Source: Streptomyces sp. SCUT-3 (lineage in GTDB: Bacteria > Actinomycetota > Actinomycetes > Streptomycetales > Streptomycetaceae). Taken from it: a stretch of 64,000 bases of DNA. Below, one piece after another: positions 1-16,550 of this stretch. Location of the stretch: positions 5,466,501-5,530,500 of the forward strand of contig NZ_CP046907.1 of assembly GCF_014083985.1 (NCBI RefSeq). Direction: 5' to 3'. How positions within the stretch are numbered: the first letter of the stretch is position 1; every line of letters begins with the position of its first letter. The notes under the pieces were generated by a model that was not told where the DNA came from, made no database searches, and saw only the letters and a list, made by a program, of their open reading frames with translations. Made by a program: the position numbers and the translations under genes.

Positions 1-66
1 CCCCCCGTGGACGGCGCGATGCTGGACCGCTACATCCGGTACCTGACCGACATCGACTTCCTGTGA
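1..66 (+). CDS. C-terminal end of an unknown protein (5' truncated)
   Basis: An open frame runs in from the left edge and stops with TGA at 64-66. The 21 visible residues (ending RYLTDIDFL) are too few to name a family. The stop lies 7 nt before the ATG of the Aat-like gene, so this is probably an earlier gene of the same co-directional cluster. Codon usage is typical of the neighbours. Its identity needs sequence left of the window. Confidence 0.55.
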   Translation, partial: PPVDGAMLDRYIRYLTDIDFL

Positions 67-73
67 GCCGGAC

Positions 74-820
74 ATGCTGATCGCAAGCCTGCCCCGGCCC
101 AAGTCGGCCTGGGAGTCCCTGGACCTGACAACCGCACCCGCCGAGGGGCCTGTGGCCTTCGGCGACGACCTCCGCCCGCAGAGCCTGCTCAGTGCCTATC
201 GGCAGGGGCTGTACCCCTTCCCCGCCGACACCGTCGAGCAGCGGTTCCTCAACGAGATCGGCCACGAGCCGGACGTGGCGGCCGGACGGGTGAAACTGCT
301 CGCCGGATCCAAGGATCCCTACTCGGTCGCCTGGTGCTCCCCCGACCCGCGGCCGCTCATCCTCGTGGACCGGGCCCGCGTCCAGCGCAGCCTGCGCCGC
401 CTGCTGCGCAGCCGGACCGGCTGGACGACCACCGTCGACGTCTGCTTCGAGCGGGTCGTCTCCCTCTGCCGGGAAGGCCGTTCCGAGAGATGGCTGACCG
501 ACGAGCTGATCGCCGGCCTGTGCAGCCTCCACACCTGCGGATTCGCCCACAGTGTGGAGGTGTGGGACGACGGCCGGCTCGTCGGAGGCACCTTCGGGGT
601 GCGGGTCGGAGCGGTCTTCAGCGCCGACTCGCAGTTCACCCTGAGCAGCGGAGCGGGGAAGGTCGCCGTCGCCGAGCTGACACGGCGCTTCGCCGAGGCC
701 GGCGGTGTGGCCGTCGACGTGCAGCACGACGGCGACCACGCCCGGTTGCTCGGGGCGCGCCCGTCCCCCGGGCGGAGTACCTCGAACTGCTCCGGTCCCC
801 GCGCGGGTCGTCACCTCTGA
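74..820 (+). CDS. leucyl/phenylalanyl-tRNA--protein transferase (Aat) family protein, C-terminus frameshifted
   Basis: Aat enzymes move Leu/Phe from aminoacyl-tRNA to the N-terminus of proteins. Family hallmarks are visible in order: AYRQGLYPFP near residue 44, WCSPDPRPLI near 88, GWTTTVDVCF near 115, and SVEVWDDGRLVGGTFGV followed by FSADSQF in the C-terminal GNAT-like half. After GDHARLLGA the frame leaves the family pattern. One base added around 751-763 restores the usual ending (PVPRAEYLEL) and moves the stop to 862-864. The enzyme sits in a run of tailoring-type genes, not beside clpS/clpA. It may therefore be a pathway transferase using aminoacyl-tRNA; that role is inference. A housekeeping N-end-rule role is the alternative. 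Confidence 0.85.
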   Translation: MLIASLPRPKSAWESLDLTTAPAEGPVAFGDDLRPQSLLSAYRQGLYPFPADTVEQRFLNEIGHEPDVAAGRVKLLAGSKDPYSVAWCSPDPRPLILVDRARVQRSLRRLLRSRTGWTTTVDVCFERVVSLCREGRSERWLTDELIAGLCSLHTCGFAHSVEVWDDGRLVGGTFGVRVGAVFSADSQFTLSSGAGKVAVAELTRRFAEAGGVAVDVQHDGDHARLLGARPSPGRSTSNCSGPRAGRHL

Positions 821-895
821 GCACCGGCCCCCGGCCCGCCCGCCGGCTTGCCGACCGACAGTGACGCGGAACGACAACACGTCAGGAGACCCGCC

Positions 896-1669
896 ATGCC
901 CACCCGTACCGTCGGCACCGAACTGCACGTCGCGAGCCTCGCCGAACGGCCCGATCTCACGTCGGCGATGCTGACGATGGAATCGTCCTGGCCGGCCTAC
1001 ATCCGCCCCGATCCGGTCCTGGTCCACTGGGTCTTCGAGCGGCACGCACACCACCAGCTCGTGGTGTTCGACGACGGGGGCACGGTCGTCGCCCGCGCGG
1101 CCAGTGTGCCGCTCACCTGGGACGGCACCCCGGGCGGCCTGCCCGACACGGGCTGGGACGAGGCACTTCGCCGGTGCATGGACGACACCTACTCCGGCCG
1201 CGAACCCAACACCCTGTGCGCCATGGAGATCGCGGTGGTCCCCGGCCGCAAGGCGCAGAACCTGTCCCGCCGCGCCCTGGACGCCCTCAAGGACCACGGC
1301 CGGCGCATGGGCTACGGGGACATGGTGGCGCCGGTGCGCCCCAGCCTCAAGCACAGCCAACCGCAGCTCTCGATGGACGAGTACGCCCAATGCGTTCGCC
1401 CCGACGGGCTGCCCCAGGACCCCTGGCTGCGCGTGCACGTACGCGCGGGCGGTCAGGTGCTGAAGGTCTGTCCCGTGTCCATGACCATCTCCGGCAGCCT
1501 CGACCAGTGGCGCGGATGGACCGGGCTGCCGTTCGACACCAGCGGCCCCGTCGAGGTGGCCGGGGCCCTGAACCCGGTCGTGGCGGACGTCGAGCACGAC
1601 CACGCCGTCTACATCGAGCCCAACGTCTGGGTCCGGCACCCGCTCACTGGCCGGCCCCAGGACTCCTGA
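896..1669 (+). CDS. GNAT-fold N-acyltransferase-like protein
   Basis: 257 aa, ATG at 896 behind an AGGAGA ribosome site. The middle carries a GNAT-like core: a strand with MEIAVVP near residue 115, then GRKAQNLSRRALDALKDHGRRMGY, which resembles the acetyl-CoA pyrophosphate-loop strand and helix. The flanking N- and C-terminal parts (MESSWPAY, EPNVWVRH) are well formed but I cannot assign them. The gene is sandwiched between the Aat homologue and the O-methyltransferase, all on one strand. Aat is itself a GNAT-fold enzyme, so the two may act in sequence on one substrate, which is inference. No signal peptide or membrane segment is seen. Substrate unknown. Confidence 0.65.
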   Translation: MPTRTVGTELHVASLAERPDLTSAMLTMESSWPAYIRPDPVLVHWVFERHAHHQLVVFDDGGTVVARAASVPLTWDGTPGGLPDTGWDEALRRCMDDTYSGREPNTLCAMEIAVVPGRKAQNLSRRALDALKDHGRRMGYGDMVAPVRPSLKHSQPQLSMDEYAQCVRPDGLPQDPWLRVHVRAGGQVLKVCPVSMTISGSLDQWRGWTGLPFDTSGPVEVAGALNPVVADVEHDHAVYIEPNVWVRHPLTGRPQDS

Positions 1670-1747
1670 ACCACCCGGCACTGCGCACACCCCCGACCCG
1701 GACCGGACCCGGTCCCTTCGACGACCGACCACGGAGGACGAACCCCG

Positions 1748-2800
1748 ATGACTGCAGTTGCGAAGAACCCGGCCGAGAAGATGCGCCTGCGAGCCGCGCT
1801 GATCGAGCGCATCGGCGGCTACATGACCGCTCACTCCATCGGTGTGGCGGCGGAACTGGGCATAGCCGACCTGATGAAGGACGAGGTGCGCGGCAGCGAC
1901 GAGCTGGCGGCGGAGAGCGGGACGCACGAGCCGTCGCTGCGGCGCCTGCTGCGTACGCTGGCGGCGGTCGGGCTCACCACCGAGCCCGAGCCGGGCCGCT
2001 TCGCGTTGACCGACGTCGGAGCCCAGCTGCGCTCCGACTCGCCCGACTCCCTGCGCGCCTTCTCCCGCATGTTCTGCCACCCCATCCTGTTCCGTGCGTG
2101 GCAGGGCCTCGGCCACGCGGTCACCACCGGCGAACGCGCGTTCGACCACGTGTACGGCAAGGACTTCTACAGCTACGTCGCCGACCAGGGCGACGCCAAC
2201 AGGCTGTTCAACGAGGCGATGAGCGAGGAGTCGCGGATCGCGGCCGCACAGCTCGCCGCCGGGTACGACTTCTCCGGCGCCAAGAAGGTGGTGGACCTCG
2301 GAGGGGGCGACGGCACCCTCCTGGCGGCGATCCTGCCGACCCAGCCCCACCTGCAGGGCATCGTGTTCGACAGTCCCAGCGGCGTGGCGGAGGCCCCCGA
2401 CGTCCTCGCGAAGGCGGGCGTCGCGGACCGCTGCGAGGCGCGGTCGGGCGACTTCTTCCGGGACATCCCCTCGGACGGCGACCTCTACATCATCAAGAGC
2501 GTCTTCCAGGACTGGGGGGACGAGGACTCCCTGGCGCTGCTGCGCTCCTGCCGCGCGCAGATGCCGGAATCCGCAACCCTCCTGATCGTGGGTTCCGTTC
2601 TCCCCGAGACGGCTTCCACGGACCAGCCGATCATGTTCTTCACGGACCTGAACATGCTCGTCAACACGGGCGGCCGGGAGCGGACCGAGAGCGAGTTCCG
2701 GGCCATGCTCGACGGGACGGGCTTCACCGTGCGGTCCGTACGGCTCGGCGCCGCCGGCCCGCTGTCCATCATCGAGGCCGTCCCCGCGGTGGCCCGGTGA
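1748..2800 (+). CDS. SAM-dependent O-methyltransferase, acetylserotonin/plant OMT type
   Basis: 350 aa. The N-terminal half is the winged-helix dimerisation domain of this family (AAELGIADLM near residue 37, ESGTHEPSLRRLLRTLAAVG near 57). The C-terminal Rossmann domain has the SAM glycine motif VVDLGGGDG near residue 180, followed by an acidic ribose site and FQDWGDEDSL near 255, where the family usually has the general-base His (HDW). Here that position is Gln, so the catalytic mechanism or the activity may differ. The start has a GGAGG site 11 nt upstream. The stop overlaps the GTG of the next gene (GTGA), which indicates translational coupling. It probably caps a hydroxyl, N-hydroxyl or acid group of the cluster product; the substrate cannot be read from sequence. 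Confidence 0.88.
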   Translation: MTAVAKNPAEKMRLRAALIERIGGYMTAHSIGVAAELGIADLMKDEVRGSDELAAESGTHEPSLRRLLRTLAAVGLTTEPEPGRFALTDVGAQLRSDSPDSLRAFSRMFCHPILFRAWQGLGHAVTTGERAFDHVYGKDFYSYVADQGDANRLFNEAMSEESRIAAAQLAAGYDFSGAKKVVDLGGGDGTLLAAILPTQPHLQGIVFDSPSGVAEAPDVLAKAGVADRCEARSGDFFRDIPSDGDLYIIKSVFQDWGDEDSLALLRSCRAQMPESATLLIVGSVLPETASTDQPIMFFTDLNMLVNTGGRERTESEFRAMLDGTGFTVRSVRLGAAGPLSIIEAVPAVAR

Positions 2801-4599
2801 CGACGCCGGGCTTCGGTGCGGAGCTGTTCCTCGGACGGCTCCGCACCGACCTTCTCGACCGGCTCGCCGGCGTTCCGAGGCACCTCGACGACGAGGAGGA
2901 GCGGTTCCTCGGCCGCCTGAGGGAGTTCTGCGAGAAGAGGGTCGACGGCGACCTCGTCGAGCGGGAGGACCGCATTCCGGACGACGTCGTCGAAGGGCTG
3001 AAGGACATCGGCGCCTTCTGCATCAAGATCCCCCGGGAGTACGGCGGGCTGGGCCTGTCCGGTCTCTGCTACCTCCGGGCGCTGATGATCGTCACCACCG
3101 TCCACTCGGCCCTGGGGGAACTGCTCGCGGCCCACCAGGCCATCGGGCTGCCCCAACCGGTCGCGCTGTTCGGCACCGAGGAGCAGAAGCGCGCCTTCCT
3201 TCCGCGGTGCGTGCGCGAGATCTCGGCCTTCGCGCTCACCGAGCCGGACGTCGGGAACGACCCCTACCGGATGCGCACCACGGCCGTGCCCGACCCGGAG
3301 ACCGGCACCTACACGCTCAACGGCGTGAAGCTGTGGGTGACCAACGGCGTCATCGCGGACCTGCTCATGGTGATGGCCGTGGTGCCGGCGTCGAACGCGG
3401 GACCCGGCGGGACGACAGTGTTCGTGGTGGAGGCCGACTCCCCGGGCGTGACGGTGGAACACCGCAGCTCCTTCCTCGGACTGCGCGGCCTGGAGAACGG
3501 CGTCGTCCGCCTCCACGACGTCGTCGTCCCCGGGGCGAACCGGATCGGCGACGAGGGAGCGGGGCTGGACATCGCCCTCGCGGCGCAGGACACCGGGCGG
3601 CTCTCGCTGCCGGCCGTCTGCGCCGCGGCGGCGAAGTGGAGCCTGAGGGTCGCCCGCCAGTGGGCCGGTGCCCGCGTCCAGTGGGGGCGGCCCATCGGCG
3701 AGCAGGAAGCGGTCGCGGGAAAGCTGGCGTTCATCGCCGCGACGGCGTTCGCGCTGGAAGCGATGGTCGAGACCTCAGGGCGCCTCGCGGACCTGGGCAC
3801 CGACGACACCCGCATGGACGCCGAGCTGGCGAAACTGTTCGCGTCGGAACGGGCATGGCTCGTGGCGGACGAACTCGTGCAGATTCGCGGCGGGCGCGGA
3901 TACGAGACGGCGCGGTCGGCGGCGGCCCGGGGAGAGCGCGGCGTTCCGGCGGAACAGCTCCTCCGCGACCTGAGGGTCGGGCGGATCTTCGACGGCTCCA
4001 CCGAGGCGCTGAGGACGTTCATCGCCTCGGCCGTGGTGGAGAGCCACCGCGCAGGCGGCGGGGCGTTGGCAGCGGGCGACGGCCCCGGTGCGGAAGCAGC
4101 CCGCGGCGACGAGGCGGGCCCGCTGGCCGGACACCGGCGGTTCGCCTCCCGGGCGGCGCGCAGACTGGGCCGGCTGGCCGGTGGGTTCGCGGACCGGCCG
4201 GACACCGAGCTCGGCGACTGCCAGCGCCGTCTGGGCCGGATCGTCGACATCGGGGCCGAGCTGTACGCGATGAGCGTCACGTGTGCCCACGCCGAGGCCC
4301 TGAGGGACCACGGCGACGCACCGGTCCGGCTTGCCGACGCCTTCTGCTCCCAGGCACGGATTCGGGTCGAGGAGATGTTCGAACGACTCACGGCCAACAC
4401 GGACGCGGGTGATCGAGCCCTCGCCCGCCAGGTGCTCGACGACCGCTTCACGTGGTTGGAGGAGGGCATCGTCGACGCTTGCGCCGAGGGCCCCTGGGTC
4501 GCCGAACCGAAGCCGGGGCCGGCGACCGGCCCGAATCTGCGCCGCCGTGTTCCGGCAGGCAAAGCCCCGAACCCGGCCGAGACCAGGAGGGTCCTGTGA
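2797..4599 (+). CDS. acyl-CoA dehydrogenase-like flavoprotein, Asp in place of catalytic Glu
   Basis: 600 aa. Residues 35-420 are an acyl-CoA dehydrogenase fold: N-terminal helices (EYGGLGLS), the FAD/substrate segment FALTEPDVGND, the beta-domain LNGVKLWVTNG, and the C-terminal helices with RGGRGYE. A further helical domain of about 180 residues follows, as in VLCAD/FadE-type members. The active-site loop reads IFDGSTE, putting Asp (residue 399) where these dehydrogenases usually have the catalytic Glu (FEGT). Asp occurs in ACAD10/11-type proteins, and ACAD-fold amine N-hydroxylases also depart from the dehydrogenase active site. Start GTG overlaps the upstream TGA, and the 3' end overlaps the next GTG. 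In this context an oxidation or N-oxygenation step is as plausible as beta-oxidation. Confidence 0.85.
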   Translation: MTTPGFGAELFLGRLRTDLLDRLAGVPRHLDDEEERFLGRLREFCEKRVDGDLVEREDRIPDDVVEGLKDIGAFCIKIPREYGGLGLSGLCYLRALMIVTTVHSALGELLAAHQAIGLPQPVALFGTEEQKRAFLPRCVREISAFALTEPDVGNDPYRMRTTAVPDPETGTYTLNGVKLWVTNGVIADLLMVMAVVPASNAGPGGTTVFVVEADSPGVTVEHRSSFLGLRGLENGVVRLHDVVVPGANRIGDEGAGLDIALAAQDTGRLSLPAVCAAAAKWSLRVARQWAGARVQWGRPIGEQEAVAGKLAFIAATAFALEAMVETSGRLADLGTDDTRMDAELAKLFASERAWLVADELVQIRGGRGYETARSAAARGERGVPAEQLLRDLRVGRIFDGSTEALRTFIASAVVESHRAGGGALAAGDGPGAEAARGDEAGPLAGHRRFASRAARRLGRLAGGFADRPDTELGDCQRRLGRIVDIGAELYAMSVTCAHAEALRDHGDAPVRLADAFCSQARIRVEEMFERLTANTDAGDRALARQVLDDRFTWLEEGIVDACAEGPWVAEPKPGPATGPNLRRRVPAGKAPNPAETRRVL

Positions 4600-5264
4600 A
4601 GGACGACGACATCGCGGACCTGATCAGGTCGGCGCAGCAGGAGCTGGCCGAGCTGCCGGCAGGCAATCGGTTCGTCGATCTGCTGGAGGCGGGAGAACTT
4701 TCCCGGGAGACGCTCGGCGTGCTGGCCAGGGAGCTCTACCGTCTCGTGCGCAGTGATCTGAGCAGCTTCGCCCTGCTCGCCTCCCGATTCCCGTCCCCGC
4801 CGGCCGGTGACCTCTTCCTCACCATGGCGCAGGGGGAGGCGCAGGCGCTTCGGCTGCTCCTCGGTTTCGCGGCGGCACTCGGCATGGACGAGCAGCAGTT
4901 GGCGTCCCACGAGCCGAGGCCGTTCGCGCAGGCCTACCCGGCGTACCTGGCGCAGACCGCGCTCCGCGGCACGCGCAGCGACACGGCCCTCGCGCTGCTG
5001 GCCAACGCCGAGGGATCGGGGCGTCAGTACGCCCGCGTGGCCGGTGCGCTGAGATCCCGGTACGGGTTCGGCGAGGAGTCGGTCGAGCACTTCCTCTTCT
5101 TCGCCGACACACCGCAGGAGCTCCTGGACCTGGCGGTGGAGACGCTGAAGGAGGGGCTCTCCGGGGGCGACGACCCGGCGGACGCCCTGCGGACCGCCCG
5201 CACGGCCCATGCGTACGAGGCCGCGTTCTGGGCCGCTCTCACCGAGGACGCCGATGCCGGCTGA
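4596..5264 (+). CDS. TenA/PqqC-like (haem-oxygenase-fold) protein
   Basis: 222 aa, all-helical composition. Start GTG 4596 overlaps the previous stop and sits behind a perfect AGGAGG. Length and the pattern of long amphipathic helices (ELYRLVRSDLSSFALLASRFP; MAQGEAQALRLLLGFAAALGM; LANAEGSGRQYARVAGAL; VEHFLFFADTP) resemble the TenA / haem-oxygenase-like superfamily. That superfamily includes thiaminases, PqqC and diiron oxidases/N-oxygenases. Two Glu and one His lie at suggestive places (GEAQ, AEGS, VEHF), but I cannot confirm a full diiron ligand set, so the assignment rests on fold-like features and is tentative. The coupled position behind the ACAD-like gene suggests a shared step or a small partner subunit. 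Confidence 0.6.
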   Translation: MKDDDIADLIRSAQQELAELPAGNRFVDLLEAGELSRETLGVLARELYRLVRSDLSSFALLASRFPSPPAGDLFLTMAQGEAQALRLLLGFAAALGMDEQQLASHEPRPFAQAYPAYLAQTALRGTRSDTALALLANAEGSGRQYARVAGALRSRYGFGEESVEHFLFFADTPQELLDLAVETLKEGLSGGDDPADALRTARTAHAYEAAFWAALTEDADAG

Positions 5265-5330
5265 TCCTCCCCGGGATCCCGCACGGCATCGCACCGGATT
5301 TCTGGAACCAGCCAGCTGCAAGGGGTACAC

Positions 5331-6563
5331 ATGATTGCCTTCAGCACGTCTCCCACCACGGCCCTCGACAGTTCGGGCGGCCGGTGCATGTACGAGCAGG
5401 TGGACCGCCTGCGTGAGATGGGGCCCGCCGTCCCCGTCCGGCTGCCCGAAGGAGTCGGGGCCTGGTCGGTGACGCGAGGGGACGTGGTCAGGCGCCTGCT
5501 GACGCACCCGGGCGTCTCCCGGAACCTGAAGAAGAACGTGCCGAGCTACGAGCCGGGCTCCGTTCCCTGGCTGTCCCCGTGGGTGGACGTGGATTCCATG
5601 GCCACCGCCGAGGGCAAGGACCATGCGCGGCTCCGCAAGCTGATCACACCGGCGTTCACCCCCCGGCGCGTCGAGGCGATGCGGTCGCAGGTCGAGGACA
5701 TCGTGACCCGGCTCCTCGACGAGCTGGAGTCACGCTCGGAGAGCGACGGGGCGGTGGACCTGCACGCGGCGTTCTCCTACCGCGTGCCGACCGAGATGAT
5801 CTGCGACCTGTTCGGCGTGCCGGCGGACCAGCGGGCACGGGTGCTGCGCCTGTTCGTCGCCGTCGGGGAGACCGGCGTCAGCGAGGAGGAGTCGCTCGCC
5901 ATCAACAACGACCTGGTCGAGACGATGCGCACGCTCATCGCCACCAAGCGCCAGGATCCGGGCGAGGACCTGACCAGCTTCCTCATCGCCGCCCGCGAGG
6001 AGGGCAACGACCCGCTCACCGAGCACGAGCTGATATCGACGCTGCTCCTGATGCTCGGGGGCGGGAGTACGACGACCATCAACCTCATCGATCACACGGT
6101 GCGCGAACTCCTCGCCCACCCGGAGCAGCTGGAGGCGCTGCGAGCGGCACCGGAACGGTGGGACGAGGCGATCGAGGAGTCCCTGCGGGTCCACTGCCCG
6201 GTCATGCACCTGCCGATGCGGTGGGCCACCGAGGACATCGACCTCGGCGAAGGGGTCGTCATCCGGGCGGGTGATGCGATTCTGATCTGCTACGGGGCCC
6301 ACGGCCGCGACCCCGGCGTCCACGACGACCCGGGCACCTTCGACATCGACCGGGAGGACAAGGACCACATCGCCTTCGGGCTCGGTGCGCACTTCTGCCC
6401 CGGCTCCCATCTCGCACGGCTGGAGGCCCGGGTGGCCCTGCCGGCGCTGTTCGACCGCTTCCCGGAGCTCGAACTCGCCATCGAGCCCGACGAGACCGAG
6501 CACGAGCACACCTTCATCGGCAACGGCCTCACCGCGCTGCCCGTCCTCCTTCGCCGCCCGTAG
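5331..6563 (+). CDS. cytochrome P450 monooxygenase
   Basis: 410 aa, class I bacterial size. The I-helix oxygen-binding region reads LGGGSTTT near residue 245, the K-helix ExxR is ESLR near 283, and the haem loop is FGLGAHFCPG with the cysteine ligand at about residue 356. All essential elements are intact. ATG 5331 has an AAGGGG site. A 66-nt gap separates it from the TenA-like gene, so it can be co-transcribed. No ferredoxin or reductase gene is adjacent, so electrons must come from elsewhere. It ends directly before a perfect 54-bp palindrome, which makes it the likely last gene of the main transcript. It is probably a hydroxylase or oxidative coupling enzyme of the pathway. Confidence 0.95.
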   Translation: MIAFSTSPTTALDSSGGRCMYEQVDRLREMGPAVPVRLPEGVGAWSVTRGDVVRRLLTHPGVSRNLKKNVPSYEPGSVPWLSPWVDVDSMATAEGKDHARLRKLITPAFTPRRVEAMRSQVEDIVTRLLDELESRSESDGAVDLHAAFSYRVPTEMICDLFGVPADQRARVLRLFVAVGETGVSEEESLAINNDLVETMRTLIATKRQDPGEDLTSFLIAAREEGNDPLTEHELISTLLLMLGGGSTTTINLIDHTVRELLAHPEQLEALRAAPERWDEAIEESLRVHCPVMHLPMRWATEDIDLGEGVVIRAGDAILICYGAHGRDPGVHDDPGTFDIDREDKDHIAFGLGAHFCPGSHLARLEARVALPALFDRFPELELAIEPDETEHEHTFIGNGLTALPVLLRRP

Positions 6564-6567
6564 CCCT

Positions 6568-6621
6568 GCGGGTGGACGGGGCCGCCCCCCGCCGCGGCGG
6601 GGGGCGGCCCCGTCCACCCGC
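6568..6621. terminator. perfect 54-bp palindrome, probable strong terminator
   Basis: Two 26-nt arms (6568-6593 and 6596-6621) are exact reverse complements around a central GC. The palindrome starts 5 nt after the P450 stop and ends 20 nt before the PPOX-type gene. There is no T-tract, which is normal for actinomycete terminators. The perfect symmetry means it would work in both directions. Confidence 0.75.
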
Positions 6622-6641
6622 CCGCGAACCCGGAGATCCAG

Positions 6642-7265
6642 ATGCATGACGGTGCCCAGCAACCGCCGCCGCAGGTGACCGCGGCGGAGTTGACCAGCAT
6701 GGCCGACCGGACCGGGCGGCTCCTCGACGGGGCTCGGTACCTGAACCTGGCGACGGTGTCGCCGGGAGGCCGCCCGTGGGTGGCGACGCTGGAGTACGCC
6801 TGGCTCGGTGACCCGCTGCGCTTCCTGTTCGGCTCGGCGGTCGGTTCCCGGCACAGCCGCGACATCGCGTCCTCGCCCCTGGTCGGCGGATCGCTCTTCC
6901 TGGCCGGCAACGGCACCGGCCTGGACGTCGCGGCGGTCGACGGTGCCCAGTTCACCGGGACGTGCTCCGAGGTGGGGGCCCATGACCTGGACCGGTACCG
7001 CCCCGTCTTCTACGAGGCGGTGTTCCCGGACGAGAGGGAGCGCGCGCGGTGGATGCTGCCGAAGTCGTCGCTGCGGGAGCCGGCCGAGCACCGGCTCTAC
7101 CTGGTCGAGGTGGAGCGGTGGTGGCTGATCGACACCCGCACCTGGGAACAGGACAGGGTCGACCGGCGCATGGAGCTGCCGCTCGCGGAACTCGACGCCC
7201 GGGTGGTGTCCACGAAGTCGACCGGCCGCTGTTCCGGCCGCGGTACGCCGTCACGGGGCGACTGA
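6642..7265 (+). CDS. pyridoxamine 5'-phosphate oxidase-like (PPOX) flavin-binding protein
   Basis: 207 aa. The split-barrel pattern of the PPOX superfamily is visible: YLNLATVSPGGRPWVATLEYAW near residues 27-48, RFLFGSAVGSRHSRDI (flavin-binding strand and loop), then a FTGTC strand. The last 15 residues are Gly/Ser/Arg-rich and look unstructured. Such proteins bind FMN, F420 or haem and perform oxidations or reductions; the cofactor cannot be told here. ATG 6642 follows GGAG by 6 nt. It lies beyond the palindrome after the P450, so it may be read at a lower level or from its own promoter. It probably belongs to the same pathway, for example as a reductase or late oxidase. Confidence 0.82.
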   Translation: MHDGAQQPPPQVTAAELTSMADRTGRLLDGARYLNLATVSPGGRPWVATLEYAWLGDPLRFLFGSAVGSRHSRDIASSPLVGGSLFLAGNGTGLDVAAVDGAQFTGTCSEVGAHDLDRYRPVFYEAVFPDERERARWMLPKSSLREPAEHRLYLVEVERWWLIDTRTWEQDRVDRRMELPLAELDARVVSTKSTGRCSGRGTPSRGD

Positions 7266-7372: not shown

Positions 7373-8761
7373 TCACTCGGAGCGCGGGTTCGGCGTGATG
7401 ACGAACGCCAGGACGGCGGCCACGGCGGCCACGACCGCTCCCGTCGCGAAGCCGCGCGAGAATCCTGCGGCGTCCGTTCCGGCGATGCTCGCCGCGGCCA
7501 TGCTCGACACGACGGCAGCGCCGAGCGAGGCGCCGAATTCGTGGAAGGTGCTGACGATTCCGGACGCCAGGCCGGCCTCGTGCGGCTGGATCTGTCCCAG
7601 CGCCGTGGCGGAGGCGACCACGAAGACGACCCCGGTGCCGGCGGCGGCGACGGCCACGCCGATCACCATGGCCGTGGTTCCGTCCCGGAACGCGGGGACC
7701 GCCATGCCGGCGGCGGCGACGAGGAGCCCGAGGGTTCCCAGCATCCGGGGCCCGGTACGGCCGATCACGCGGCCCGCGGTGTTCGCCCCCGCCATGGTCG
7801 CCAGGGCCACGGGGAGGAAGAGCAGGCCGGTGGTCAGCGCACCGTGCTCGCGGTAGCCCTGGAGGTAGAACGTGCCGAGGAAGAAGACCATGATCATCAG
7901 TGCTGTGGCCACGAGGATCAGCAGGGTTCCGGCCGTCACCGGTCGGCGGACCAGCAGCTTGACGTCCATGAGCGGGCTGGCGGCCGTGCGCTGACGCATC
8001 ACGAAGGCGGCGTAGAGGACTGCCGAGGCCGCGACGAGGGCCGCCGTCGTCAAGGTGGCCCATCCCTGGTCCCCCGCCCTGATCAGGGCATAGGTCAGGG
8101 TTCCGGTGGCTGCCGTCACCAGGACCGCGCCCGGGACGTCGAGCGGGTTCCTGGCGGCCGGGCGCGACTGCGGCGGGAGCTGCGTCCGGAGGGTCAGCAG
8201 CAGCACGAGTCCCACGGGGACGTTGATGTAGAAGACCCACGGCCACCCCGGTCCCGCGGTGAGGAGTCCTCCGAGGAGGACGCCCAGGGCGGCGCCGCTG
8301 CCGCCCAGGGCGGACCAGATCCCGAGCGCCTTGTTCCGCTCGTCGCCCTCGAAGAGGGTGACGATCAGCGCCAGTGCCGCCGGGGAGAGGAACGCTGCGG
8401 AGAGGCCCTGCGTGACACGGGCGCCCAGGAGCATGGGCCCGGAGACGGCGAGGCCCGCGACGAGCGACGAGACGGCGAACAGCAGCAGCCCCACGAGGAC
8501 GAGGCGGCGGGCGCCGAAGAGATCGGCTGCGCGGCCCCCGAGGAGGAGGAGGCCGCCGAAGGTGAGGGTGTAGCCGCTCACCACCCAGGTGAGCGTCTCC
8601 CGCTCCAGGCCGAGATCCGCGCCCATGTGGGGCAGGGCGATGGCCACGACGGTGACGTCCAGGATCAGCATCAGCTGGGCGATGCCGACGAGAGTGAGGA
8701 TCTTCCAGCGTCGTGGTTCGGGACCGTCGGTCGGTCTGGCGGAGGTCAGGTGCTCGGTCAT
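7373..8761 (-). CDS. MFS drug exporter, DHA2 (EmrB/QacA) family
   Basis: 462 aa with 12-14 hydrophobic segments. The first segment ends in DVTVVAIALP, the DHA2 motif D1-type sequence, followed by WVVSGYTLTFGGLLLLGGRAADLFGARR, which contains motif A. Motif C-like glycine-rich helices occur near residue 150. Start ATG 8761 is divergent from a TetR regulator with a 93-nt operator-rich gap. It is a proton-driven exporter, likely for the product of the adjacent cluster or a toxic analogue. This link comes from position and is inference. Confidence 0.92.
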   Translation of the reverse strand: MTEHLTSARPTDGPEPRRWKILTLVGIAQLMLILDVTVVAIALPHMGADLGLERETLTWVVSGYTLTFGGLLLLGGRAADLFGARRLVLVGLLLFAVSSLVAGLAVSGPMLLGARVTQGLSAAFLSPAALALIVTLFEGDERNKALGIWSALGGSGAALGVLLGGLLTAGPGWPWVFYINVPVGLVLLLTLRTQLPPQSRPAARNPLDVPGAVLVTAATGTLTYALIRAGDQGWATLTTAALVAASAVLYAAFVMRQRTAASPLMDVKLLVRRPVTAGTLLILVATALMIMVFFLGTFYLQGYREHGALTTGLLFLPVALATMAGANTAGRVIGRTGPRMLGTLGLLVAAAGMAVPAFRDGTTAMVIGVAVAAAGTGVVFVVASATALGQIQPHEAGLASGIVSTFHEFGASLGAAVVSSMAAASIAGTDAAGFSRGFATGAVVAAVAAVLAFVITPNPRSE

Positions 8762-8854: not shown

Positions 8855-9463
8855 ATGTCTCGTCCGGCGGTGAAGCCCGCGCGGAGGGCCGATGCCCAGC
8901 ACAACGCGGAGAAGATCCTTGAGGCGGCGGTCACCTGCCTGAGCAGGAATCCGGATGCGAGCGTCAGTGACATCGCGCACGCGGCCGGGGTGGGCCGGGT
9001 GACCCTGTACGGGCATTTCCCGTCCAGGGCCGACCTGATCGAGGCCGCACTGGCGCGGCTCCTCGGCCAGGGGGACGAGGTGCTGGAAAGACTGGACCTC
9101 ACGGGCGATCCGCGGGAGGCGCTGCGGGTGCTGATCGAGTCGAGCTGGCTGCTGATCGCTCAGGCGAGTGCCGTCCTCGAGGCGGCGCAGGCGGTTCTGC
9201 CCCCGGGGCGGCTGCACGACCTCCACGCCAAACCGGAGCAGCGGGTCGGCGACCTGATCGGCCGGGGCCAGGCCGAAGGGGCTTTCCGCCGGGACCTCCC
9301 CGCGAGCTGGCTGGCCGGCGTCATGCACCACATCATCAAGGGGGCGGCGGCGGACGTGGCGGACGGGCGGCTGGACCGGACGGACGCGCCGCGGTTCATC
9401 GCGGAGACGGTCCTGGGCGCCTGCAGGCCCGTGGACGAGGAGCGGGGCCCGGCCGGCCACTGA
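8855..9463 (+). CDS. TetR/AcrR family transcriptional repressor
   Basis: 202 aa. The N-terminal helix-turn-helix is clear: AEKILEAAVTCLSRNPDASVSDIAHAAGVGRVTLYGHFPSRADLIEAAL across residues 14-62. The C-terminal ligand domain is helical and variable. ATG 8855 has GAGGAG 4 nt upstream; a GTG further upstream is less likely. It is divergent from the DHA2 exporter and probably represses it until an effector, perhaps the cluster product, binds. Confidence 0.93.
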   Translation: MSRPAVKPARRADAQHNAEKILEAAVTCLSRNPDASVSDIAHAAGVGRVTLYGHFPSRADLIEAALARLLGQGDEVLERLDLTGDPREALRVLIESSWLLIAQASAVLEAAQAVLPPGRLHDLHAKPEQRVGDLIGRGQAEGAFRRDLPASWLAGVMHHIIKGAAADVADGRLDRTDAPRFIAETVLGACRPVDEERGPAGH

Positions 9464-9595: not shown

Positions 9596-11329
9596 GTGCT
9601 CACACAACTCCTGCGGACCCGCCTGGGGCCGTACAGAAGATCCCTGGCCCTGCTGGTGCTGCTGCAGTTCCTGCAGACCTGCGCCACTCTCTACCTGCCG
9701 ACCCTGAACGCCGACATCATCGACAACGGTGTCGTGCGGGGGGACACCGGCTACATCCTGTCGTCCGGCGCGCTGATGATCGCCGTCACCGTCGTCCAGG
9801 TGGTGTGCAACACGGGCGCCGTTCATTACGGCGCGCGCACCGCCGCGGCGCTCGGGCGCGACCTGCGGGCCGCCGTCTTCGACCGCGTGCAGTCCTTCTC
9901 GGCGCGCGAGGTCGGCCGCTTCGGGGCGCCGTCGCTGATCACCCGGACCACCAACGACGTCCAGCAGGTGCAGATGCTGGCCCTCATGGCGTTCACCCTC
10001 ATGGTGTCCGCGCCGATCATGTGCGTCGGGGGCATCGTGATGGCCCTCGGCCAGGACGTGCCGCTGTCCGCGGTGCTGCTGGTGGTGGTGCCGGTCCTCG
10101 GTGCCGCGGTCGGCCTGGTCGTGCGGCGGCTGCGGCCGCTGTTCCGCTCCGTGCAGGAGCGGCTCGACACCGTGAACCGGGTGCTGCGCGAGCAGATCAC
10201 CGGCAACCGCGTCATCCGCGCCTTCGTGCGCGACGCCCACGAGGAGGAACGGTTCCGCGGCGCCAACGCCGACCTCACGGACGTCTCCACCAGGGCCGGG
10301 CAGATGCTGGCGCTGATGTTCCCGGTCGTGATGACGGTCGTGAACGTCTCCAGCGTCGCGGTGCTCTGGTTCGGCGCGCACCGCATCGACGACGGCGGCA
10401 TGGAGATCGGCGCGCTCACCGCGTTCCTCGCCTACCTCATGCAGATCGTCATGGCCGTGATGATGGCCACCTTCATGTTCATGATGGTCCCGCGCGCCGA
10501 GGTCTGCGCCGAGCGCATCCAGGAGGTGCTGGACACCGACAGCAGCGTCGTGCCGCCCGCAGACCCCGTGCGGGAGCTGCGCGGCCGCGGCCGCCTGGAG
10601 ATCCGCGGGGCCGGCTTCCGCTACCCGGGCGCCGAGGAGCCCGTGCTGCGCGACGTGGACCTGGTGGCCGGCCCCGGCGAGACGACCGCCGTCATCGGGT
10701 CCACGGGCAGCGGCAAGTCCACGCTGCTGGGCCTGGTGCCCAGGCTGTTCGACGCCACGGACGGCGAGGTGCTGGTGGGCGGCGTGAACGTGCGGGACCT
10801 CGACCCGGCGCTGCTCGCGAGGACCGTGGGCCTCGTCCCGCAGAAGCCGTACCTGTTCTCCGGCACGGTCGCCACGAACCTGCGGTACGGAAACCCGGGG
10901 GCCACGGACGAGGAGCTGTGGCACGCGCTGGAGGTGGCGCAGGCCCGCGACTTCGTCGAACGCCTCGAAGGGGGACTGGACGCGCCGGTCTCCCAGGGAG
11001 GGACGAACGTCTCCGGCGGGCAGCGGCAGCGCCTGGCGATCGCCCGCACCCTGGTGCAGCGGCCCGGGATCTACCTCTTCGACGACTCCTTCTCCGCCCT
11101 GGACTACGCCACGGACGCCGCGCTGCGCGCCGCGCTCGCCCACGAGACCGCGGGGGCCGCGGTCGTCATCGTCGCCCAGCGCGTGTCGACCGTGCGCGAC
11201 GCCGACCGGATCGTGGTGCTGGACGGGGGCCGGGTCGTCGGCACCGGGCGCCACCACGAGCTGATGGAGGACAACGACACCTACCGGGAGATCGTGCTCT
11301 CCCAGCTGACCGAAGCGGAGGCGGCGTGA
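9596..11329 (+). CDS. ABC exporter half-transporter A (degenerate catalytic Walker B)
   Basis: 577 aa from GTG 9596. The frame stays open upstream, but that stretch is Pro/Arg-rich and unlike the family. Six transmembrane helices (about residues 15-300) are followed by a nucleotide-binding domain: Walker A GSTGSGKS, Q-loop VPQKPYLFSG, canonical signature SGGQRQ, and Walker B YLFDDSFSALD. The second Asp replaces the catalytic Glu, as in the degenerate subunit of heterodimeric exporters of the BmrCD/TM287-288 type. Its stop overlaps the start of subunit B. Substrate unknown; lipid or drug export is typical. Confidence 0.92.
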   Translation: MLTQLLRTRLGPYRRSLALLVLLQFLQTCATLYLPTLNADIIDNGVVRGDTGYILSSGALMIAVTVVQVVCNTGAVHYGARTAAALGRDLRAAVFDRVQSFSAREVGRFGAPSLITRTTNDVQQVQMLALMAFTLMVSAPIMCVGGIVMALGQDVPLSAVLLVVVPVLGAAVGLVVRRLRPLFRSVQERLDTVNRVLREQITGNRVIRAFVRDAHEEERFRGANADLTDVSTRAGQMLALMFPVVMTVVNVSSVAVLWFGAHRIDDGGMEIGALTAFLAYLMQIVMAVMMATFMFMMVPRAEVCAERIQEVLDTDSSVVPPADPVRELRGRGRLEIRGAGFRYPGAEEPVLRDVDLVAGPGETTAVIGSTGSGKSTLLGLVPRLFDATDGEVLVGGVNVRDLDPALLARTVGLVPQKPYLFSGTVATNLRYGNPGATDEELWHALEVAQARDFVERLEGGLDAPVSQGGTNVSGGQRQRLAIARTLVQRPGIYLFDDSFSALDYATDAALRAALAHETAGAAVVIVAQRVSTVRDADRIVVLDGGRVVGTGRHHELMEDNDTYREIVLSQLTEAEAA

Positions 11330-15260: not shown

Positions 15261-16550
15261 TCAGGGGTGGGGGCGGGGGCGGGTCTCGTACATGCGTACC
15301 GCGACCACCAGGCCGGAGGCGGCGGTCAGGGCGGCCACTGCCCATATCGCGGTGGTCAGGCCGTACAGGTCGGCCAGGAGGCCGGAGAGCAGGGCGCCGA
15401 CGGCGAAGCCGCCGTCGCGCCACAGGCGGTAGACGCCGACGGCCCGGGCGCGCCACGCGGGGTGGGCGACGTCGCCGACGGCGGCGAGGAGGGTGGGGTA
15501 GACCAGGGCGGTGCCCGCGCCGAGCAGGACCTGCGCGGCGGCCCACACGGGGAAGGACGTGCCGGCGGCGACCAGGCCGATGGCGACGGCCTGCAGCAGC
15601 ATGCCCGCCGTGATCAGGTGCTTGCGGCCGACGCGGTCGGACCACCAGCCGGTGAGCATCTGCCCCACCCCCCACACCGCCGGGTAGAGGGCGGCCAGGA
15701 CGCCGATGCGGCCGATCGGCAGGCCGTGGGCGGCGTACAGCAGGGGGAAGATCCCCCAGGCCAGGGCATCGTTGAGGTTGTTGACCATGCCGGCCTGGCT
15801 GGCCGCCGACAACGCCTTGTCGCGGACGCTGGTGATCAGGGCGACCTCGCCGGTGGTCAGCTCGCCGTGGTGCTCGGGGTTGGCCGGGGCGGGGTGGCGG
15901 GCGGCCTCGGCGCGGGCGTGCTCGCGGGTCTCGCGCACGGCGAGGACCGACAGGCCCAGGCCCAGGGCCGTGTAGGCGGCGCCGAGCAGGAACGGTTCGG
16001 GCCGCAGCCCGTAGCGGGCGGCGATCAGGCCGGTGGCCATGGCGGTGGCGGCCACCGCCGCGTACCCGGCGGCCTCGTTGAAGCCCATGGCCAGGCCGCG
16101 CCGTTCGGGACCGACCAGGTCGATCTTCATCACGACGGTGGTGGACCACGACAGGCCCTGGTGGACGCCCAGCAGGACGTTGGCGGCGATCACCCAGCCC
16201 CACGACGGTGCCCAGATCAGCAGGGCGGGCACCGGCAGGGCGACGAGCCACCCGGCGACCAGAACCGGTTTGCGGCCGAAGCGGTCGGAGAGCGTCCCGG
16301 CGAAGAAGTTGGTGACCGCCTTGGTCGCGCCGAAGGCCACGATGTACGTGAGCGCCGCGGTGTAGGCGGACAGGCCGAAGACGCCCTCGGCCAGCAGGGG
16401 CAGCACCGTGCGCTCCTGGCCCAGGGTGCCGCCGACCAGCGCGTTGACCGCGACGAGCAGGGTGAACTGCGCGAGGTTCGCGCGCAGGCCGAGCCTGATC
16501 CCGCCCGGTCCTTCGGCGGCCGGTGCGGTGGTGTCTTCCGGGACGGTCAT
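15261..16550 (-). CDS. MFS transporter
   Basis: 429 aa, 12 predicted membrane segments in two halves joined by a charged loop (ETREHARAEAARHPAPANPEHH, about residues 190-215). Motif A occurs as GTLSDRFGRKPVL in the first half and again as GWWSDRVGRKHLI in the second. Start ATG 16550 is divergent from the ArsR-rhodanese regulator across an 82-nt gap with a dyad. The pairing suggests that its substrate is sensed by that regulator. Substrate is unknown; sulfur compounds, thiols or metals are options given the rhodanese domain (inference). Confidence 0.88.
   Translation of the reverse strand: MTVPEDTTAPAAEGPGGIRLGLRANLAQFTLLVAVNALVGGTLGQERTVLPLLAEGVFGLSAYTAALTYIVAFGATKAVTNFFAGTLSDRFGRKPVLVAGWLVALPVPALLIWAPSWGWVIAANVLLGVHQGLSWSTTVVMKIDLVGPERRGLAMGFNEAAGYAAVAATAMATGLIAARYGLRPEPFLLGAAYTALGLGLSVLAVRETREHARAEAARHPAPANPEHHGELTTGEVALITSVRDKALSAASQAGMVNNLNDALAWGIFPLLYAAHGLPIGRIGVLAALYPAVWGVGQMLTGWWSDRVGRKHLITAGMLLQAVAIGLVAAGTSFPVWAAAQVLLGAGTALVYPTLLAAVGDVAHPAWRARAVGVYRLWRDGGFAVGALLSGLLADLYGLTTAIWAVAALTAASGLVVAVRMYETRPRPHP

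Follow-up and report, generated by a model that had tools for sequence, protein, structure and literature searches.

The opening part of a 64,000-nucleotide stretch of the Streptomyces sp. SCUT-3 genome (contig NZ_CP046907.1, positions 5,466,501 to 5,530,500; the whole stretch is referred to here as the window) almost certainly holds a tRNA-dependent biosynthetic gene cluster of the livipeptin type, in which a homologue of Aat, the leucyl/phenylalanyl (L/F)-tRNA-protein transferase, is accompanied by a nonribosomal peptide synthetase (NRPS) lacking a condensation (C) domain. A biosynthetic cluster around this presumably aminoacyl-tRNA-dependent enzyme had been proposed from the window alone, and gene co-occurrence and phylogeny lend support to that proposal. 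The cluster was then taken to be possibly undescribed, yet its first five genes occur in the same order in the livipeptin cluster of Streptomyces lividans (PMC10548850). The kind of cluster is already known; new here are the missing NRPS, a conserved extended gene set, a split of the loci into two groups, a residue marker in Aat, and doubt over the role assumed for the GNAT protein. Positions given below are those of the window, the prefix C1 denotes genome coordinates, and L-numbers denote the loci that were compared.

A 19.5-kb region that spans the window start and extends upstream of it was read, and showed that the window edge cuts the cluster, bases 1-66 being the last codons of an NRPS gene located directly upstream of the Aat gene, and it was because of this cut that the original prediction had described the locus as free of NRPS genes. 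In the intact L016 relative of this NRPS, 79% identical to it across the C-terminal 787 amino acids, Pfam identified AMP-binding, PP-binding and NAD_binding_4 domains, the last of these being the thioester reductase, and detected no condensation domain. Motif alignment gave the adenylation (A) domain pocket as D-T-E-D-I-G-A-I-T, and as D-T-E-D-I/V-G-A-I-T across the livipeptin-type loci, and the acidic residues at positions 239/278 would fit a basic amino acid, a compatibility that is not proof of arginine; loading of Arg onto the carrier is judged moderately likely. The NRPS gene of this strain also carries a TTA at codon 8, which may place it under bldA control; among nine relatives a TTA codon was present only in L019 and L022. 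Between an upstream cytochrome P450 gene and the NRPS start lie approximately 2.1 kb (L002:13425-15522) that contain no convincing open reading frame and are partly AT-richer than their surroundings. The genes of the cluster are as follows.

1..66, + strand: 3' end of the C-less NRPS gene, encoding A, peptidyl carrier protein (PCP) and thioester reductase (R) domains; its start lies about 3 kb upstream, at C1:5463523 (whole gene L002:15523-18566)
74..820, + strand: Aat/L-F transferase homologue, the presumed tRNA-utilizing enzyme (tRUE); PF03588, E 1e-40; C-terminus altered by a frame break
896..1669, + strand: GNAT-fold protein at the position of the livipeptin 'N-acyltransferase'; assigned by predicted structure, with CurA-type GNAT-like loading (GNATL) domains nearest
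1748..2800, + strand: S-adenosylmethionine-dependent methyltransferase of the O-methyltransferase family; PF00891/PF08100
2797..4599, + strand: acyl-CoA-dehydrogenase-like (ACAD) flavoprotein with a C-terminal extension; PF02770/02771/00441
4596..5264, + strand: TenA/haem-oxygenase-fold protein; PF03070
5331..6563, + strand: cytochrome P450; PF00067
6642..7265, + strand: PPOX-like (PNPOx_N) protein; PF01243, E 2.6e-7

The seven genes from Aat to PPOX are all co-directional and closely packed, with the ACAD start overlapping the methyltransferase gene at 2797-2800 and the TenA gene overlapping that for ACAD. Pfam support was strong for Aat, the O-methyltransferase, ACAD and the P450, and moderate for TenA and PPOX; together with the coordinates, this confirmed the tight run of these genes that had been read from the sequence.

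A collection scan with the Aat sequence retrieved ten close loci (56-79% identity), every one of which encodes an NRPS directly upstream and a GNAT downstream of Aat. The O-methyltransferase, ACAD and TenA genes were also retained in 9/10, and the P450 and PPOX in eight of those nine, neither having been found within the sequence stretch examined for L024; the tenth locus, L025 (Nocardiopsis), is a short contig. These nine loci, which exclude the window, are distributed across Streptomyces, Actinoplanes, Actinopolyspora, Micromonospora, Actinophytocola and Saccharothrix, and the recurrence of the set in six actinomycete genera indicates that the linkage is not due to chance. The co-occurrence check advised in the original prediction was therefore borne out. 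Several loci have been rearranged, with the P450 preceding the NRPS in L017, the ACAD, PPOX and P450 genes inverted in L021, and PPOX inverted in L020 and L023; that membership remains constant despite these changes in order argues for a shared function of the gene set. In the Micromonospora locus L020, genes for a 2OG-Fe(II) oxygenase (2OG, 2-oxoglutarate) and a 3-hydroxyacyl-CoA dehydrogenase (4764-5732 and 15637-16518) adjoin the cluster genes and possibly represent lineage-specific tailoring.

The family and class were sampled and 31 neighbourhoods were read, revealing a second and commoner group in Streptomycetaceae (most from group g14) that consists of a C-less NRPS and an Aat only, often fused, with Aats approximately 50% identical to that of the window. 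None of the GNAT, O-methyltransferase, ACAD, TenA or PPOX genes was found near the loci of this group that were examined, and a weak P450 match (33%) was present in one, L157; their A-domain pocket is nearly identical to that of the livipeptin-type loci. Members of the NRPS and Aat type have also been reported from Kitasatospora and Streptacidiphilus (PMC10548850). In a third set (L167, L168, L173 and L179-L181) the Aats are less closely related (36-44%) and adjoin NRPS loci of other kinds, some with several A domains; these are possibly other Aat-NRPS partnerships. A plasmid-borne livipeptin homologue, such as the SLP3 copy of S. lividans, was sought in the plasmid collection, where tblastn with Aat returned matches below 60% only, those listed being from other phyla.

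The phylogeny of 67 Aats was inferred with IQ-TREE. The NRPS-associated Aats formed one clade of 31 rows (support 100/98), within which the livipeptin-type Aats, including that of the window, were nested as a clade of 12 rows (100/99), whilst the 36 rows for Aats with no NRPS beside them fell on the other side of the tree. This division was mirrored at the position of E. coli Glu156, which is Asp in every NRPS-associated Aat, the third set of loci included, and Glu in Aats without an NRPS (with the exception of L027). The position of E. coli Met158 is Gln in the livipeptin-type branch, including the window (L025, with Met, being the exception), and Met in the group with NRPS and Aat only. Both positions belong to the amino-acid pocket of the E. 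coli Aat structure, and the assumption of Leu/Phe in the published scheme therefore merits a test. The two residues provide a sequence marker by which Aats of natural-product pathways can be told from those of the N-end rule, as well as a route to testing donor selectivity. A further livipeptin-type Aat with the Asp/Gln pocket, 68% identical to that of the window, was observed in L153 (G731) at 9818-10489, alongside Vsr-like and Dcm-like genes; no NRPS was found within approximately 9 kb of it, nor an orthologous NRPS in the complete genome, and it appears to be an orphan tRUE.

Taken as a whole, the locus is probably best explained as a livipeptin-type cluster whose mechanism includes tailoring and export. 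The A domain would load the PCP with a basic residue, for which Arg is the best candidate, after which the tRUE would transfer an aminoacyl group from aminoacyl-tRNA to the amine of the carrier-bound residue, in place of a condensation domain. The GNAT-fold protein would then cap the new N-terminus or provide the acyl group, and the reductase domain would free the dipeptide as an aldehyde. These four steps follow the published livipeptin proposal, which is backed by genetic and ribonuclease experiments carried out with S. lividans and E. coli. In E. coli, Sli0883, Sli0884 and Sli0885 were jointly needed and sufficient for a protease-inhibitory fraction, only three-gene combinations having given inhibitor; the Sli0883-5 mutant lacked the fraction, and RNase abolished the inhibitor (PMC10548850). 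The ACAD, methyltransferase, TenA-fold protein, P450 and PPOX may subsequently tailor the product, as their conservation suggests, and the MFS (major facilitator superfamily) protein encoded downstream may export it. A more heavily tailored derivative is the fairly likely final product, and simple N-acetyl-Leu/Phe-argininal a doubtful one. It is also conceivable, at somewhat less than an even chance, that the fixed tailoring set (CurA-like GNAT, methyltransferase without its His, Asp-type ACAD, metal-less TenA-fold protein, P450 and PPOX) leads to a new, heavily modified scaffold in place of a simple acyl-Leu/Phe-argininal, and that the Asp156/Gln158 pocket selects an aminoacyl-tRNA other than those of Leu and Phe. 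If the extra conserved genes do belong to the pathway, the published three-gene reconstitution would yield an intermediate, and the full set would indicate which strains and additional enzymes lead to the real product. No named compound was matched to the specific end product, the livipeptin paper being the only relevant literature found.

The GNAT-like protein of the original prediction gave a sub-threshold Pfam match only (E 0.03), and its fold was confirmed by a predicted model that is clearly of the GNAT type (mean predicted local distance difference test score, pLDDT, 82.5). This model aligned with CurA (2ree) at a Z score of 21.2, compared with 16.1 for the best N-acetyltransferase, and CurA was also the sole sequence match in the PDB (E 9.6e-6). 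The GNAT-like loading domains of CurA, GphF and SxtA are thus the nearest fold, and the label 'N-acetyltransferase' is consequently an assumption. The positions of CurA Arg387 and His389 are invariant in the cluster GNATs, but that of Thr355 is Val/Leu, so that the Thr355/His389 catalytic dyad of the GNAT decarboxylase is incomplete; in CurA, for which the dyad and residue roles have been described, T355V drastically reduced decarboxylation (PMC3701320). Unlike the CurA-type loading domains, the cluster GNAT is a stand-alone protein with no polyketide synthase (PKS). The genome encodes a second CurA-like GNAT copy, 50% identical, at C1:5985363-5986118.

Unusual residues were also found in other tailoring proteins. 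The methyltransferase has Gln (FQDW) in 10/10 aligned sequences at the position where the catalytic His of the O-methyltransferase family is expected, and the ACAD has Asp (FDGS), again in 10/10, in place of the usual catalytic Glu. The relatives of the latter are VLCAD/ACAD9, and it matches the epoxyketone enzyme EpxF over nearly its full length; as no PKS is present, an EpxF-like function was not adopted. The TenA-fold protein (model pLDDT 93) is nearest to CADD (template modelling score 0.80) and thereby has the fold of the haem-oxygenase-like diiron oxidases of the CADD, BesC and UndA type. These oxidases are expected to carry the ligand pattern H-x3-D-x2-H and E-x6-H, which was absent from all 10 aligned cluster sequences as well as from the TenA-fold relatives examined elsewhere, giving no support to an N-oxygenase role. 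For the P450, the best PDB sequence match was CYP154A1.

The divergent genes downstream of the cluster, together with ABC transporter genes also located downstream, agree with the exporters and TetR gene originally noted beside it.

7373..8761, - strand: predicted MFS exporter; orthologues adjoin the cluster in L020 (79%) and L017 (65%)
8855..9463, + strand: TetR-family regulator, its gene transcribed away from that of the MFS exporter; orthologues adjoin the cluster in L020 (73%) and L017 (51%)

The pair thus lies beside the cluster in both of these loci, several others carry, within the cluster itself, an MFS gene that is less closely related, and, judged from this arrangement, the MFS exporter probably belongs to it.

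The possibility originally raised was a pathway with neither NRPS nor PKS, whose Aat homologue would form a small aminoacyl or N-oxygenated amide in the manner of valanimycin or pacidamycin. The Aat family does use aminoacyl-tRNA, and no NRPS is visible among the neighbouring genes inside the window, but the adjacent gene cut by the window edge is an NRPS that is present in 10/10 best relatives, and the diiron-oxidase motif is missing from the TenA-fold protein, leaving an N-oxygenated amide with no specific support and this pathway very improbable. It was also considered that Aat could be a housekeeping N-end-rule enzyme merely located beside unrelated genes, and it is indeed the only Aat of the genome. 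However, no Aat match was found in 319/395 sampled genomes of the family, so that its sole status is no evidence for a housekeeping role; it falls outside the housekeeping rows of the tree, and its TIGR00667 score of 107 bits does not reach the equivalog cut-off of 143.55, although the C-terminal frame break may have cost some bits. Sole occurrence combined with housekeeping grouping had been named as grounds for abandoning the cluster, and only the former was observed. On the strength of the tree, the residues and the shared neighbourhood of NRPS and tailoring genes in other genera, a housekeeping Aat was rejected, its chance being negligible.

Decay of the cluster in this strain is an unlikely explanation that would have single-base frame breaks inactivating both the NRPS, split at C1:5464200-5464212, and Aat, whose frame changes near 755-770. 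Beyond this point the Aat C-terminus (..GARPSPGRSTSN..) is unlike that of all ten relatives (consensus like ..GARPVPR..YL.LL..), and the +1 frame carries on the family sequence. Similar splits affect further NRPS genes in this assembly (for instance C1:2770823-2771356/2771344-2772528 and C1:2778739-2779890/2779884-2780408), making assembly indels the likelier cause, and the remaining cluster genes are in intact frames. The NRPS region C1:2770823-2792234 is broken into several reading frames, suggestive of frequent assembly indels or of decay. A stronger, though still not favoured, alternative is that the pathway continues past the aldehyde, which cyclises or is oxidised to a pyrazinone- or carbinolamine-type ring on which the oxidoreductases act, such that no peptide-aldehyde protease inhibitor results. 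Arg/Leu pyrazinones are known from Streptomyces, and five conserved tailoring proteins that are absent from the examined loci with NRPS and Aat only point to chemistry beyond a capped dipeptide aldehyde; against this, the three-gene reconstitution yields protease-inhibitory fractions (PMC10548850). Several observations weigh against the livipeptin-type explanation itself. In addition to the frame breaks in both core genes and the closeness of the GNAT to CurA-type loading domains, which exceeds its similarity to N-acetyltransferases, relatives of the GNAT are frequent outside the cluster (184/390 sampled genomes of the family) and weaker TenA relatives occur outside it in 142/390, and with so many relatives elsewhere neither protein alone was accepted as a cluster marker. 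The presumed orthology to Sli0883-0887 is drawn from gene order together with the published placement of an Actinopolyspora cluster in the livipeptin branch.

Amongst known systems, VlmA (valanimycin) and PacB (pacidamycin) resemble the window enzyme in aminoacyl-tRNA-dependent amide or ester formation in natural products, and are not known to belong to the Aat (PF03588) family. The housekeeping L/F-tRNA-protein transferase (E. coli Aat, 2z3k/2dps) shares PF03588 and the residues at the Asp186, Gln188 and Trp111 positions, but the window Aat differs from it in Glu156 to Asp and Met158 to Gln, in Thr at the Met144 and Val at the Ile185 position, and in approximately 30 extra residues between the GLYPF and AWCSPDPR motifs. 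Loci with NRPS and Aat only have the same NRPS architecture, nearly the same pocket and Asp at the Glu156 position, and differ in retaining Met at position 158 and in lacking the GNAT, O-methyltransferase, ACAD, TenA and PPOX genes nearby. The closest counterpart is the livipeptin cluster of S. lividans 66 (Sli0883-0887, MIBiG BGC0001168), in which Sli0883 is A-PCP-R, Sli0884 an L/F transferase, Sli0885 an N-acyltransferase, Sli0886 an O-methyltransferase and Sli0887 a butyryl-CoA dehydrogenase (PMC10548850). The cluster described here has a C-less NRPS, an L/F-transferase homologue, a GNAT, an O-methyltransferase and a butyryl-CoA-dehydrogenase-like ACAD in identical order. Arg has been predicted for the livipeptin A domain and an Actinopolyspora cluster placed in the livipeptin branch (PMC10548850); the pocket found here is compatible with Arg, and another Actinopolyspora (L019) is amongst the loci compared. 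On the TenA-fold, P450, PPOX and transporter genes, the main text of PMC10548850 is silent, whereas in the loci described here they are conserved members.

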